This document shows, piece after piece, positions 1-35,109 of a stretch of 36,806 bases of DNA. The DNA comes from Bdellovibrionales bacterium (lineage in GTDB: Bacteria; Myxococcota; XYA12-FULL-58-9; SYDY01): the NCBI GenBank assembly GCA_005801425.1, contig SYDY01000058.1, forward strand, positions 1-36,806. Reading direction: 5' to 3'. Both the position numbers and the translations under genes were made by a program. The notes below the pieces were generated by a model, which saw nothing but the letters and a program-made list of their open reading frames with translations, searched no databases and had not been told where the DNA came from. Each line of letters begins with the position of its first letter. Position 1 is the stretch's first letter.

Positions 1-1454
<1,454 letters not shown>

Positions 1455-16499: not shown

Positions 16500-16523
16500 G
16501 GGCGGCTCACCAACCGCCCCTAC
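16500..16523 (-). repeat. GTAGGGGC-type palindrome (element R2)
   Basis: GGGCGG (16500-16505) and CCGCCC (16514-16519) form a stem, with CTAC completing the GTAGGGGCGG border on the minus strand. The core is TTGGTGAG rather than TTCGTGAA. It lies in the divergent space between rplU and the transaldolase gene, upstream of the rplU promoter; it is the only copy of the family not located just after a gene. Confidence 0.75.
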
Positions 16524-23351: not shown

Positions 23352-23417
23352 AAGTGATGCAACGGCCATTGCTTGATCGTGTAAAGTTTGTAGAAACAAA
23401 AATGCACCCCATCGCAG

Positions 23418-23467
23418 GGGCGGTTCGCGAACCGCCCTAACAAGGGTCGTTCACGAACGACCCCTAC
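23418..23467 (-). repeat. Two GTAGGGG-type palindromes (element R3)
   Basis: A perfect 20-base palindrome, GGGCGGTTCGCGAACCGCCC (23418-23437), is followed after 6 bases by GGGTCGTTCACGAACGACCC (23444-23463) and CTAC. Read on the minus strand the pair starts GTAGGGGTCG. It lies between rseP and tsaB, starting about 20 bases after the rseP stop. The two arms show compensating changes (GGCGG/CCGCC against GTCG/CGAC), which keep pairing while changing sequence. Confidence 0.85.
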
Positions 23468-25205: not shown

Positions 25206-25229
25206 GGGCGGTTCACGAACCGCCCCTAC
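25206..25229 (-). repeat. GTAGGGGC-type palindrome at the cdsA stop (element R4)
   Basis: GGGCGGTTCACGAACCGCCC (25206-25225), with CTAC (25226-25229). On the minus strand it reads GTAGGGGCGGTTCGTGAA and onward. The TAG of the border, 25228-25226, is the stop codon of cdsA. It occupies much of the 46-base gap to rseP. Confidence 0.85.
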
Positions 25230-26032
25230 GCTAAAAATAAGATGCCATAGTATGCCACAGGGGCTGCAAAAATGAGGGAATCAAACCGATCAAGAAACCC
25301 TCCGTGTCCTGGGATCAACTGTGAGCTGTCTTTCACACCATACGACCGTTTCAGCAACGACTCGCACAAATCGCCAACAATTCCCGCAACACCGACCATT
25401 AAGCCCAATAATGCGCCTATAACCCAAGTTTTCCCAGGAAGAACCCACCCAGCAGCCACGAATATTCCACCAACAGCAACGGATGCACACAAACCGGCCA
25501 ACGCACCTTCTATCGTCTTGCCTGGCGAGACCTGAGGACACAGCCGATGACGACCAAAGGCCCTGCCTGCGAAATAGGCCGCCGTATCCGACAACCACAC
25601 GCATAACAACACCATCCCAGCGGCATACAAACCTTGGTCCATGTGCCGAAGCTGGGCGTAGTATGGCAGTAGCCCCGCGCAATAAAAAATACCCAACAAC
25701 ATGGTTTCTGCGCGTCTGGCCGCAGTTGCAATGTCGATAGAACCCACGAGAACAACCGATAGTACTGCAAGCCCAATCACAGCCCAGATCCCATCGTTCA
25801 CGAGGGGTATCGTGATTAAGCCCGACCGCGATGCATAGGCGGCCAAGACCAAAACATAACCCACAACACGCGCAACAACGCCATGGGATACATTCGCCAT
25901 GCGCTGATATTCCCAGTACATCAAGACACAAATCAGCGCACACAAGCCGTGAAGGAAAAATCCACCCGAATAGGTTGCCCACAGAAGCAGTGGTACAAAC
26001 ACCAATGCAGCCATCACACGATGTTTGAGCAC
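25226..26032 (-). CDS. cdsA: Phosphatidate cytidylyltransferase
   Basis: A 268-residue inner-membrane enzyme that makes CDP-diacylglycerol from CTP and phosphatidate. The protein has about eight membrane segments. The C-terminal signature reads SLLKRSYGVKDSSQLIPGHGG and continues LDRFDS, the CDP-diacylglycerol synthase hallmark. I place the start at GTG 26032, with AAGGGAG five bases upstream and the family-like N-terminus VLKHRVMAALVFVP. The frame is open to 26131, but this part runs through a palindromic repeat. The TAG stop is part of repeat R4. Confidence 0.95.
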   Translation of the reverse strand: MLKHRVMAALVFVPLLLWATYSGGFFLHGLCALICVLMYWEYQRMANVSHGVVARVVGYVLVLAAYASRSGLITIPLVNDGIWAVIGLAVLSVVLVGSIDIATAARRAETMLLGIFYCAGLLPYYAQLRHMDQGLYAAGMVLLCVWLSDTAAYFAGRAFGRHRLCPQVSPGKTIEGALAGLCASVAVGGIFVAAGWVLPGKTWVIGALLGLMVGVAGIVGDLCESLLKRSYGVKDSSQLIPGHGGFLDRFDSLIFAAPVAYYGILFLA

Positions 26033-26050
26033 GAAAACTCCCTTCAGAAC

Positions 26051-26108
26051 ACCCTCACCGCCGCGCTTCGCTCGGCGACTCTCCCAAAGGGAGAGTATTA
26101 GGGGTTGG
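26051..26108. repeat. Second palindromic repeat type (CTCTCCC-AAA-GGGAGAG)
   Basis: ACTCTCCC (26078-26085) and GGGAGAGT (26089-26096) form a perfect 8-bp stem with loop AAA. Next to it CGCCG and CGGCG (26059-26077) bracket a second hairpin. The ends carry ACCCTCACC and GGGGTTGGG, of the kind seen in a widespread intergenic repeat class. The TAA stop of uppS (26100-26098) and the preceding codons (TPNP) lie inside it. Confidence 0.75.
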
Positions 26109-26841
26109 GCGTCATTTGTTGAGCGGTACAACCAAATCGGCGTTTTCGGCCAATATAAACACCTACGGCGTCATCAATATCGCTCGCTGTCATATCTGGC
26201 CACCAACGATCGATAAAAAGTAATTCCGAATAGGAAAGTTGCCAGAGTAAAAAATTGCTAAGACGTTGCTCACCCGATGTTCGCAACAACAAATCTGGAT
26301 CGGGCATGCCAGCCGTACTCAAAAATGACCCAAACAACGCTTCATCAATATCTTGGATTTCAAGCTGGCCTTCTTTAACACGCGAAGCCACGGCACGTAC
26401 GGCACGCAGGATATCATCGCGTCCACCATAATCGAGTGCGAGATTAAGTGTCATACCAGCACAATGCGCGGTTGCTTTGATGGCCCGCTCCACAGCGGCT
26501 GCTGTGCTTTGCGGAAACCGACGCAAGCCACCAATCACATTTAAACGGATCCCCTGTTCAAGCAATGTTGGCGTTTCTTCATCACAATAGGTGCAAAGAA
26601 GATCCATGAGACCGGCCACTTCGCCGTCTGGTCTGCGCCAATTTTCGGTCGAAAATGAAAACAACGTGAGATACGGAATGCCCAATTCACGCACTCTGGT
26701 TGTGATCAGACGAACCGCAACTGCACCACGACGATGTCCGTCTATGCGCGAAAAACCTTGTTCTTCAGCCCACCGCCCGTTTCCGTCCATGATGATGGCG
26801 AGGTGCTGCATCGGTGCGGGTCCGATCGTTCGGTTGCTCAT
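26098..26841 (-). CDS. uppS: Undecaprenyl diphosphate synthase (cis-prenyltransferase)
   Basis: A 247-residue enzyme that builds undecaprenyl diphosphate from isopentenyl and farnesyl diphosphate, the lipid carrier for wall synthesis. Conserved: HLAIIMDGNGRWA with catalytic Asp19, DGHRRGA, LTLFSFSTENW, LDYGGRDDI and, near the C-terminus, PDLLLRTSGEQRLSNFLLWQ and SELLFID. The start is ATG 26841, behind a weak GGGA. The first 77 bases overlap the preceding membrane-protein gene in another frame. The last four residues and the stop come from a palindromic repeat. Confidence 0.97.
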   Translation of the reverse strand: MSNRTIGPAPMQHLAIIMDGNGRWAEEQGFSRIDGHRRGAVAVRLITTRVRELGIPYLTLFSFSTENWRRPDGEVAGLMDLLCTYCDEETPTLLEQGIRLNVIGGLRRFPQSTAAAVERAIKATAHCAGMTLNLALDYGGRDDILRAVRAVASRVKEGQLEIQDIDEALFGSFLSTAGMPDPDLLLRTSGEQRLSNFLLWQLSYSELLFIDRWWPDMTASDIDDAVGVYIGRKRRFGCTAQQMTPNP

Positions 26842-32354: not shown

Positions 32355-32407
32355 GGGCGGTTCACGAACCGCCCATACGCACATGGCGCAGCAAGCTGCG
32401 CCGCTAC
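32355..32407 (-). repeat. Two palindromes after hppA (element R5)
   Basis: GGGCGGTTCACGAACCGCCC (32355-32374) is followed by GGCGCAGC (32385-32392), AA and GCTGCGCC (32395-32402), a perfect 8-bp stem, then GCTAC. On the minus strand the unit begins GTAGCGGCGCAGCTTGCTGC, and its first G is the last base of the hppA stop TAG (32409-32407), giving TAGTAG. It fills the hppA-rpsF gap. Confidence 0.85.
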
Positions 32408-34458
32408 TATCCTAATAAAGGGGCGATCACCAGAGCAACGACGCTCATAAGCTTAATAAGAATGTTGAGGGCAGGGCCGGCTGTATCTTTAAACGGATCA
32501 CCGACGGTATCACCAACAACCGCAGCCTTGTGCGTGTCGGAGCCTTTCCCACCAAAGGCACCTGCTTCGATGTGCTTTTTGGCGTTGTCCCAAGCGCCAC
32601 CGGCATTGGCCATAAATATAGCAAGCAACACACCTGTAACGGTTACACCGACGAGCAGGCCAGCCAAGGCCTCTTTGTCATAGAAGCCCACCACAACAGG
32701 CACAACAACGGCCATAAGTCCTGGCACAACCATGCTCTTGATCGCTGCTGTGGTTGCAATATCCACACAACGTGCATGATCTGCAACGGCGGTGCCTTCC
32801 ATCAAGCCCTTGATTTCTCGGAACTGACGGCGAACTTCTTTGATCATATCAAAAGCAGCACGGCCTACAGCGGTCATGGCCATGGAGGAGAACAAGAACG
32901 GCAACATCCCCCCCAGCAACACACCCACCAATACGATGGGCTTGGATACGTCAATGGTATCAATATTCGCTGTGGAACGATATGCACTGAACAACGCAAG
33001 AGCGGTTAGCGCTGCTGAACCGATGGCAAAGCCTTTGCCAATCGCAGCTGTGGTGTTGCCAACGGCATCCAATTTGTCGGTTCGGGCACGCACCGAAGAG
33101 TCCATATGACTCATCTCTGCAATACCACCGGCATTGTCAGAGATAGGTCCGTAGGCATCAACAGCAAGCTGAATGCCCGTGGTGGACAACATACCAAGGG
33201 CTGCAAGTGCGATGCCGTAAAGCCCCGCCAACTCGTACGAAACCATAATGGCAATGCCAATCAGGATTGTAGGAACTGCCGTGGAACGCATCCCAAGCGC
33301 CAAGCCCGAGATAATACTGGTGGCTGCACCCGTTTGCGCATCTGATGCAAGTTGCCGCGTTGGTGCTTTTGACTCAGCGGTATAATATTCGGTCACCATG
33401 CCGATTGCAGCGCCGGCAATCAAACCTGCAACGACGGCGATAAATGCACCCATGGCAGAATGCGTTTCGCCACCCAAGGTAATGCCTTCGGGAATAAGCC
33501 ACATAATGAGAAAATACGCAGCCGCAACCATCAAGACACCCGCAATGAAGGTACCTTGATTGAGTGCTTTTTGTGGATCACCATTTTCGCTGGTGCGTAC
33601 AAAAAATGTCCCAATGATCGAAACGATAATACCAACACCCGCAAGCACCATCGGCAAAAGAATACCACCGATTTGTCCACCTGCGGCAGCCAACACCATA
33701 GCGCCCAAAATAGCGCCAACATAGGATTCAAAAAGATCGGCGCCCATGCCAGCCACGTCACCAACATTGTCGCCCACGTTGTCCGCAATCACGGCAGGGT
33801 TGCGTGGGTCATCTTCTGGAATGCCCGCTTCGACTTTACCGACAAGATCTGCACCGACGTCCGCTGCCTTCGTGTAAATGCCGCCGCCCACACGAGCAAA
33901 AAGCGCGATGGAAGATGCACCCAAGGAAAATCCGCTAAGCACAGCAAGCAGACGATTCCAGTCATCACCGAAAATGCCACTGTTGAAATAGATGGCCATC
34001 AACGAACCCATGCCGAGTACGCCAAGTCCAACCACGCTCATGCCCATCACCGTACCACCCGCAAAGGCGATATCGAGGGCAGGCACCAAGCCACGGCGTG
34101 CAGCATTGGCTGTACGCACATTGGCAAGCGTCGCCACATGCATACCAAAAAAGCCCGCGAGGGCCGAGCATGAGGAACCCACCAAAAATGAGACTGCAAC
34201 CAGCCAATGACTTGCAAGGCTGTCGTAGTTGGCGAAACCTAATATTGCGGCAACCACCACGGCAAACACCGCAAGAACGCGATACTCACGGGCAAGAAAC
34301 GCCATAGAGCCTTCGCGAATATAACCCGAGATTTCACGCATACGATCGGTTCCAGCCTCTTGCTTACCAACCCATCGGGCTTTGAAAAACGCAAAAACCA
34401 GCGCCAAGACGCCAGCCAGTGGAATGACACACAACATGTCTTGCAACGAAATCTGCAT
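32407..34458 (-). CDS. hppA: Membrane-bound ion-translocating pyrophosphatase
   Basis: A 683-residue, about 16-segment protein that couples pyrophosphate hydrolysis to H+ or Na+ export. Substrate motifs are present: [43 protein letters not shown] and, near the end, [14 protein letters not shown]. The sequence [14 protein letters not shown] has Ala where K+-independent enzymes carry Lys, which points to the K+-dependent class; whether it moves Na+ or H+ cannot be told here. Its ATG 34458 has CGGAG upstream. It lies between pth and rpsF, with palindromic elements on both sides, and is an unusual guest in a ribosomal-protein gene run. Confidence 0.97.
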
Positions 34459-34485: not shown

Positions 34486-34546
34486 GGGCGATTAATGAAC
34501 CGCCCCTACAACATAGAACAAGGTCCGCAGCAAGCAGCGTCCCTAC
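34486..34546 (-). repeat. Two palindromes at the pth stop (element R6)
   Basis: Plus-strand 34486-34509 (GGGCG..., ending CGCCCCTAC) is a decayed GGGCGGTT-type palindrome; 34521-34546 ends GCGTCCCTAC and on the minus strand begins GTAGGGACGCTGCTTGCTGC, like the first half of R1 and R5. The TAG of pth (34545-34543) is the TAG of this border. The unit fills the gap between pth and hppA. Confidence 0.8.
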
Positions 34547-35109
34547 AGCACATCACGCACATTGTGATGACGCATTGCGGATGCAACACCGAGAGTCACA
34601 ATTTCGGTGACCGCATCTGCCGCCTCATCAAACGCCGACCGCATGAGCGGCTGACTTTTAGCATCTATTCTGGATAACACAAACCCTGCGGCATCTTCAT
34701 TACCCAAAGGTTTGCCGATCCCGATACGAACACGCACAAATTCTGCACCCACATGTTGTATCAACGACCGAAGGCCATTGTGTCCGCCATGTCCACCCGA
34801 TTGTTTGACACGAACGATGCCGGGTTCAAAATCCAGTTCGTCATGCACCACGACGATTTGGGTCACATCATCGTAGTAACGGCTGATAGGTCCAACCGCA
34901 TCACCACTCAAGTTCATGAATGTTTTGGGCTTGCAGAGCATCACATCAACGCCTGCGATTTTACCGCGTGCAACATCTGCTTTGAGAAAGGATTTCCATG
35001 GTGGAAAAGAGTAACGTTGGCTTAGGAGATCAAGCACGTCGAACCCAACGTTGTGCCTGGTTCCAGCATAATTGCTGCCGGGATTGCCTAAACCAACAAT
35101 CAGCCACAT
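34543..35109 (-). CDS. pth: Peptidyl-tRNA hydrolase
   Basis: A 188-residue enzyme that releases peptides from drop-off peptidyl-tRNA. Conserved: MWLIVGLGNPG, GTRHNVGFD with catalytic His19, KPKTFMNLSGDAV, VVHDELDFEPG, and GGHGGHNGLRSL. It starts at ATG 35109, 12 bases after rplY, the usual rplY-pth pairing. The stop TAG is part of element R6. Confidence 0.98.
   Translation of the reverse strand: MWLIVGLGNPGSNYAGTRHNVGFDVLDLLSQRYSFPPWKSFLKADVARGKIAGVDVMLCKPKTFMNLSGDAVGPISRYYDDVTQIVVVHDELDFEPGIVRVKQSGGHGGHNGLRSLIQHVGAEFVRVRIGIGKPLGNEDAAGFVLSRIDAKSQPLMRSAFDEAADAVTEIVTLGVASAMRHHNVRDVL

Follow-up and report, generated by a model that had tools for sequence, protein, structure and literature searches.

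The window analysed here is the whole 36,806-nt stretch of contig SYDY01000058.1 of a Bdellovibrionales bacterium, and six loci within it hold at least ten repeat units, all of them GTAG-type palindromes, though with a degenerate tag in some. These units (REPs), together with four host genes that were each confirmed by Pfam, are laid out along the window as follows:

45–1409, + strand: pyrG (CTP synthase), with its N-terminus beyond the window
1406–1428, + strand: family B REP (GTAGGGGCGTAGCTTGCTGCGCC); TAG 1407–1409, within GTAG 1406–1409, is the pyrG stop
1431–1454, − strand: family C REP (GTAGGGGCAGGGCTTGCCCTGCCC), the tail-to-tail partner of the pyrG element
16500–16523, − strand: family A REP with GTAG at 16523–16520 and no gene 3' end adjoining
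23414–23437, + strand: family A REP with the mutated tag GCAG
23444–23467, − strand: family A3 REP (GGGTCGTTC..GAACGACCC), 20 nt downstream of the rseP stop (23490–23488)
25206–25229, − strand: family A REP (GTAGGGGCGGTTCGTGAACCGCCC); TAG 25228–25226, within GTAG 25229–25226, is the cdsA stop
25226–26131, − strand: cdsA (CTP_transf_1, PF01148)
32355–32378, − strand: family A REP with the degenerate tag GTAT, the second unit downstream of hppA
32385–32407, − strand: family B REP (GTAGCGGCGCAGCTTGCTGCGCC); its G at 32407 doubles as the final base of the hppA stop 32409–32407
32407–34458, − strand: hppA (H_PPase, PF03030)
34486–34509, − strand: family A REP (GTAGGGGCGGTTCATTAATCGCCC), the second unit downstream of pth
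34522–34546, − strand: degenerate family B REP (GTAGGGACGCTGCTTGCTGCGGACC); TAG 34545–34543, within GTAG 34546–34543, is the pth stop
34543–35109, − strand: pth (Pept_tRNA_hydro, PF01195)

The stem families seen in the window are A (GTAG GGGCGGTTC..GAACCGCCC), A3 (GGGTCGTTC..GAACGACCC), B (GTAG[G/C]GGCGCAGCTTGCTGCGCC-like) and C (GGGCAGGGCTTGCCCTGCCC), and some units are joined in tail-to-tail pairs, which is the dimer or BIME-like composite feature of GTAG REPs. A preliminary description of this DNA had spoken of six copies, and this stands for the loci but not for the units, which are more numerous and belong to several stem families; likewise, the type A listed by the repeat finder fits the cdsA copy with its GGTTC..GAACC stem, whereas the units at pyrG, hppA and pth are of family B. 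It was accurate in every coordinate when it read the TAG of GTAG as the stop codon of pyrG, cdsA and pth, and also in noting that the element at hppA overlaps the stop of that gene by one base, its final G. At the latter gene there is, besides, a second in-frame TAG: the gene ends TAG TAG, its own stop being followed by that of the element (32406–32404, within GTAG 32407–32404).

The genome to which the window belongs comprises 3.38 Mb in 121 contigs, and elements and genes were counted in 2.31 Mb (about 68%) of it, taken from outside masked stretches; 72,000 bases of one contig (G000:C118) read N, and elements there are uncounted. Genes were called with our own simple codon-usage model, which gave 1714 of them with 709 TAA, 647 TGA and 358 TAG stops. 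Elements were searched for by their cores with the tag ignored, and the 305 that were recovered fall into several stem families; their hairpins fold, and an exact GTAG is present on 264 of these cores. Family A has 344 copies at up to three mismatches in the 3.38 Mb, and is thus of high copy number. In 28 of the 305 elements the TAG coincides base for base with the stop of a predicted gene on the same strand (offset +1), against about two at each neighbouring offset. Between −40 and +120, every other offset has at most 8, this being the maximum among offsets −40 to −1, and the positive offsets past +1 hold seven cases altogether. Similarly, GTAG serves as a stop in 34 of 367 REP-like occurrences as opposed to 91 of 6191 other GTAGs (Fisher 2.7e-15). 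This is the genome-wide count that the preliminary description had proposed, and the borders of the repeats did not turn out to coincide with stops merely as often as other GTAGs do. Thus, its contention that chance does not readily explain the pattern is borne out: the stop coincidence is real, strongly non-random and far above chance.

The sharpness of the peak at +1 is partly built in because any in-frame TAG that enters a reading frame becomes the stop of the gene. As an in-frame TAG is always a stop, the peak alone is therefore no proof of targeting, and the informative quantities are instead the rate of TAG cases and the rarity of the other frames and of the other orientation. Near gene ends, the 28 TAG cases compare with 5 forward and 8 reverse read-throughs reaching at most 20 codons past the element, read-throughs being a class that the gene caller may undercount. 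With random frame and orientation, TAG cases would be expected to make up one-sixth. Among the forward elements alone, the TAG frame is occupied by 28 of the 33 near gene ends, as against an expectation of one-third (P 1.5e-9). In its other forward frames and in reverse, the repeat sequence contains few or no stops, so that insertions of these kinds add a tail to the protein. This imbalance favors the other suggestion of the preliminary description, namely that insertions supplying a TAG are the ones that are tolerated.

Elements also occur in the interior of genes. There are 68 element-gene overlaps wholly inside predicted genes among the 305 elements, although some of these are close to a predicted start and may actually precede the true one. 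The remaining elements are intergenic or at gene ends, with many near stops, in keeping with the 3'-end and intergenic placement of GTAG REPs. Forward elements internal to ORFs occupy only the two frames that avoid the TAG, with 37 and 6 of the 43 in each. Since the internal elements avoid the TAG frame, the forward insertions that meet ORFs are divided into 28 TAG and 43 other cases, which is near the one-third that landing at random would give (P = 0.17). A tandem REP array was also observed on the minus strand of another contig (G000:C94, 37139–37256), where four family B repeats follow one another at intervals of exactly 39 nt, all in one frame; its unit is divisible by three, and it is situated inside a predicted gene or in the region upstream of that gene.

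If elements reset gene ends in this manner, the C-termini of the affected proteins become a further source of information. Relatives from the same order, with best hits at 39–77% protein identity, were used for this comparison; no site lacking its element was encountered directly, and one scan of genome contigs with cdsA returned only distant matches of 32–44% identity. Measured against these homologs, pyrG has a C-terminal offset of −4 to −1 residues, cdsA one of −5 to 0 and a gltD-like gene one of −2 to +3. A radical-SAM-like gene (C64) is longer than its relatives, by +1 to +20 residues; control genes mostly fall between −6 and +2, with some outliers. The C-termini are thus nearly unchanged in three of the four tested genes. 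The product of hppA, which retains its own stop, ends at the same residue as in its closest relatives, and for further TAG-terminated genes the homologs within the order align to near their ends. No orphaned coding sequence was found behind any of the 28 elements. The small offsets and the lack of a coding remnant indicate that, where this can be tested, the elements lie at the old ends or no more than a few codons from them, and both lend additional support to the tolerance of TAG-supplying insertions.

The best explanation of the stop coincidence, to which we assign a probability of about 0.72, is insertion combined with selection for a frame that ends cleanly. The repeats are GTAG-tagged REP sequences, i.e., hairpins of 20–25 nt with an unpaired 5' GTAG tag that carries the TAG. 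Being short and non-autonomous, they would have been spread by an enzyme, presumably one of the TnpA-REP/RAYT type that cuts and joins single strands. A copy landing tag-first at the 3' end of a gene or no more than a few codons from it, in the frame xxG|TAG, would cause the gene to end at the first bases of the element, and insertions in this frame would be kept. With a copy in either of the remaining forward frames or in reverse, the reading frame would enter the stop-poor hairpin and the protein would gain a foreign tail, and such insertions would mostly be lost. Given a border that bears a TAG and a filter acting on frame and orientation, the stop coincidence may be seen as the outcome of a selection filter. 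What the counts and alignments show is the coincidence with its excess, the bias in frame and orientation, and the small C-terminal change in three of the four tested genes, from which we infer a history of insertion, an enzyme and selection.

A different view, which the preliminary description had also put forward, is that the mobilizing enzyme prefers the context of a stop codon and that insertion occurs precisely at stops, for example with a pre-existing TAG being consumed. The sharp +1 peak, an approximately threefold excess of family B over a neutral estimate (see below) and the C-termini of cdsA and pyrG, which lie near those of relatives, are all compatible with such targeting, but other observations make it unlikely. 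The bases that precede GTAG at stops show no consensus among the stop-supplying elements. Reverse elements have no sharp peak: gaps of −1, 0, 1, 2, 3 and 4 nt to the stop are seen 2, 6, 4, 3, 2 and 3 times, respectively, and the 31 that lie 0–9 nt from stops are near intergenic chance, with 23 expected from uniform placement in their own intergenic gaps. Forward elements are under-represented at 0–9 nt behind intact stops, with 17 seen where 26.9 would be expected, and none in the 2.31 Mb lies directly behind one (gap 0). Finally, stops with an exact core directly behind them are provided by GTAG in 19 of 19 cases, whereas TAA or TGA is followed by an exact core in none. Taken as a whole, the interpretation given in the preliminary description is partly supported, with tolerance upheld and targeting of a stop-codon context disfavored.

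The reading of insertion followed by selection for cleanly ending frames leaves a difference between the stem families to be considered. Stop-supplying copies make up 14 of 73 (19%) in family B, 13 of 167 in family A and 1 of 8 in A3, with 0 of 42 in A2. The last of these families occurs in a composite arrangement (e.g., G000:C77, + strand, 35764), wherein a T-rich 5' flank is followed by the A2 hairpin, a conserved spacer of about 27 nt and an inverted family A hairpin. A neutral estimate was obtained by simple arithmetic of our own, in which the density of insertions outside the stop is extended over the last 10 codons; for family B this density is based on 29 insertions within 30 nt in both orientations. 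On this reckoning, family A has 13 TAG cases versus about 11, and family B 14 versus about 5. The family B excess, roughly threefold over this simple estimate, is not accounted for by the tolerance model, and it could stem from a broader tolerance, from favored retention or from a degree of preference for 3' ends. A stronger version, rather unlikely in our assessment, is that family B inserts preferentially at the 3' ends of ORFs, or that its TAG-supplying copies are actively retained beyond the tolerance filter, such that the element would act as a portable “stop plus hairpin” cassette.

The flanks of family B are not conserved, which makes the GTAG itself the boundary of this family. In 33 of 66 copies the base before the element is C, and in 46 of 66 the base after it is T, flank counts that are reminiscent of the C|T cleavage described for TnpA-REP. 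Although each side is enriched, the co-occurrence of C and T in these 66 copies is not above that expected; hence, a joint C..T flank was rejected as a target signature of family B, as the two sides do not go together. Excising 23 or 24 nt to rebuild the empty sites of family B yielded no consistent ancestral stop, the right boundary being uncertain.

It might also be envisaged that these are domesticated 3' ends, at which a hairpin right behind the stop is useful, be it for mRNA stability or for control of translation, and is kept for that reason. In its favor are the stable fold of the hairpin at the cdsA stop (−18.2 kcal/mol, z −3.5), the general location of REPs at gene 3' ends (PMC3733652) and the description, in work cited in PMC12306157, of E. 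coli REPs as lowering translation when they lie no more than 15 nt from a stop. Nevertheless, the hairpins of hppA and pth have unexceptional folds (z −1.1 and −0.9), the host genes are unrelated to each other, and among 195 genomes of the phylum the exact family A consensus is found in the present one alone, so that nothing points to long conservation at any site; domestication is accordingly quite improbable. That spurious ORFs were called as genes and end at repeat TAGs by chance is hardly credible, for even though the gene calls come from a simple codon-usage script, pyrG, cdsA and pth are Pfam-confirmed, other TAG-ended genes have homologs in the order that align near their ends, and the effect is missing at other offsets and at other GTAGs.

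With regard to a mobilizing enzyme, the GTAG tag is a recognition element for TnpA-REP (PMC8266576). The whole genome contains four Y1_Tnp genes, of which two resemble the REP-associated type, one is of the IS200 type and one is broken; no family A or B REP lies within about 1.5 kb of any of the four, and the flanking arrangement of a REPtron is thus absent. Two loci (L032:1177-1983 and L033:1414-2376) code for intact Y1 transposases that resemble the REP-associated tyrosine type, score 73 and 67 bits against an NCBIfam cut-off of 80 and have no flanking REPs. At a further locus (L034:871-1794), a transposase of the REP-associated type is split over two frames with extra sequence between them and looks decayed, and the motifs GTAGGGGCG and GGGGACATTCC are found just upstream of it.

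The exact 24-nt consensus of family A is absent from the other 194 genomes of the phylum that were searched. It is matched in 32 stretches of IMG/VR contigs (L243-L274, e.g., L274:1569) with a G+C content of 53–72%, which suggests that family A also occurs outside this genome, be it in other hosts or in DNA that is viral or mis-binned. The 55 elements in these 32 stretches include one clear case of a 481-codon ORF ending at the TAG, a sample that is too small for statistics.

The supply of stops by the border of a REP is an already published property of GTAG REPs: the GTAG-tagged superfamily was defined by Di Nocera, De Gregorio and Rocco (2013; PMC3733652), who reported that the termini of these REPs “often provide” a TAG stop to flanking ORFs and that the REPs are close to the 3' ends of genes. 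In the present genome, the resetting of gene ends by a mobile repeat can be counted clearly: about 9% of the copies, and 19% in one family, are the stop codon of a gene. This bears on the origin of the 3'-end location of REPs, of which filtering by frame and orientation after insertion may explain a large part. It also means that in REP-rich genomes the positions of stops and the C-termini of proteins can be element-derived.

Comparisons may be drawn with several known systems. In their layout of a tag and a hairpin, the elements resemble those of the REPtrons, i.e., the pairs of REPs and TnpA-REP (RAYT) genes (Nunvar et al. 2010, PMC2817692; PMC8266576), and they likewise reside in a genome with Y1 transposase genes resembling REP-associated tyrosine transposases. 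Unlike in REPtrons, the candidate transposases fall under the NCBIfam cut-off and have no family A or B REP beside them, and no cognate enzyme is linked to the elements. The closest correspondence is with the GTAG REPs (PMC3733652), with which they share a palindrome of 20–40 nt with an unpaired GTAG at one end, a high copy number, several stem families per genome, dimers and a mostly intergenic location near 3' ends with some copies internal to ORFs, as well as termini that supply TAG stops (here 28/305). The stop coincidence is counted here by frame, orientation and family, a breakdown that the text of that paper does not give. A parallel might also be struck with the Rickettsia palindromic elements (RPE), in the terms in which they are cited in PMC3733652, as some copies in the present genome likewise lie in frame inside ORFs; however, whereas RPE are presented there as peptides inserted inside proteins, the stop-supplying copies described here end the protein.
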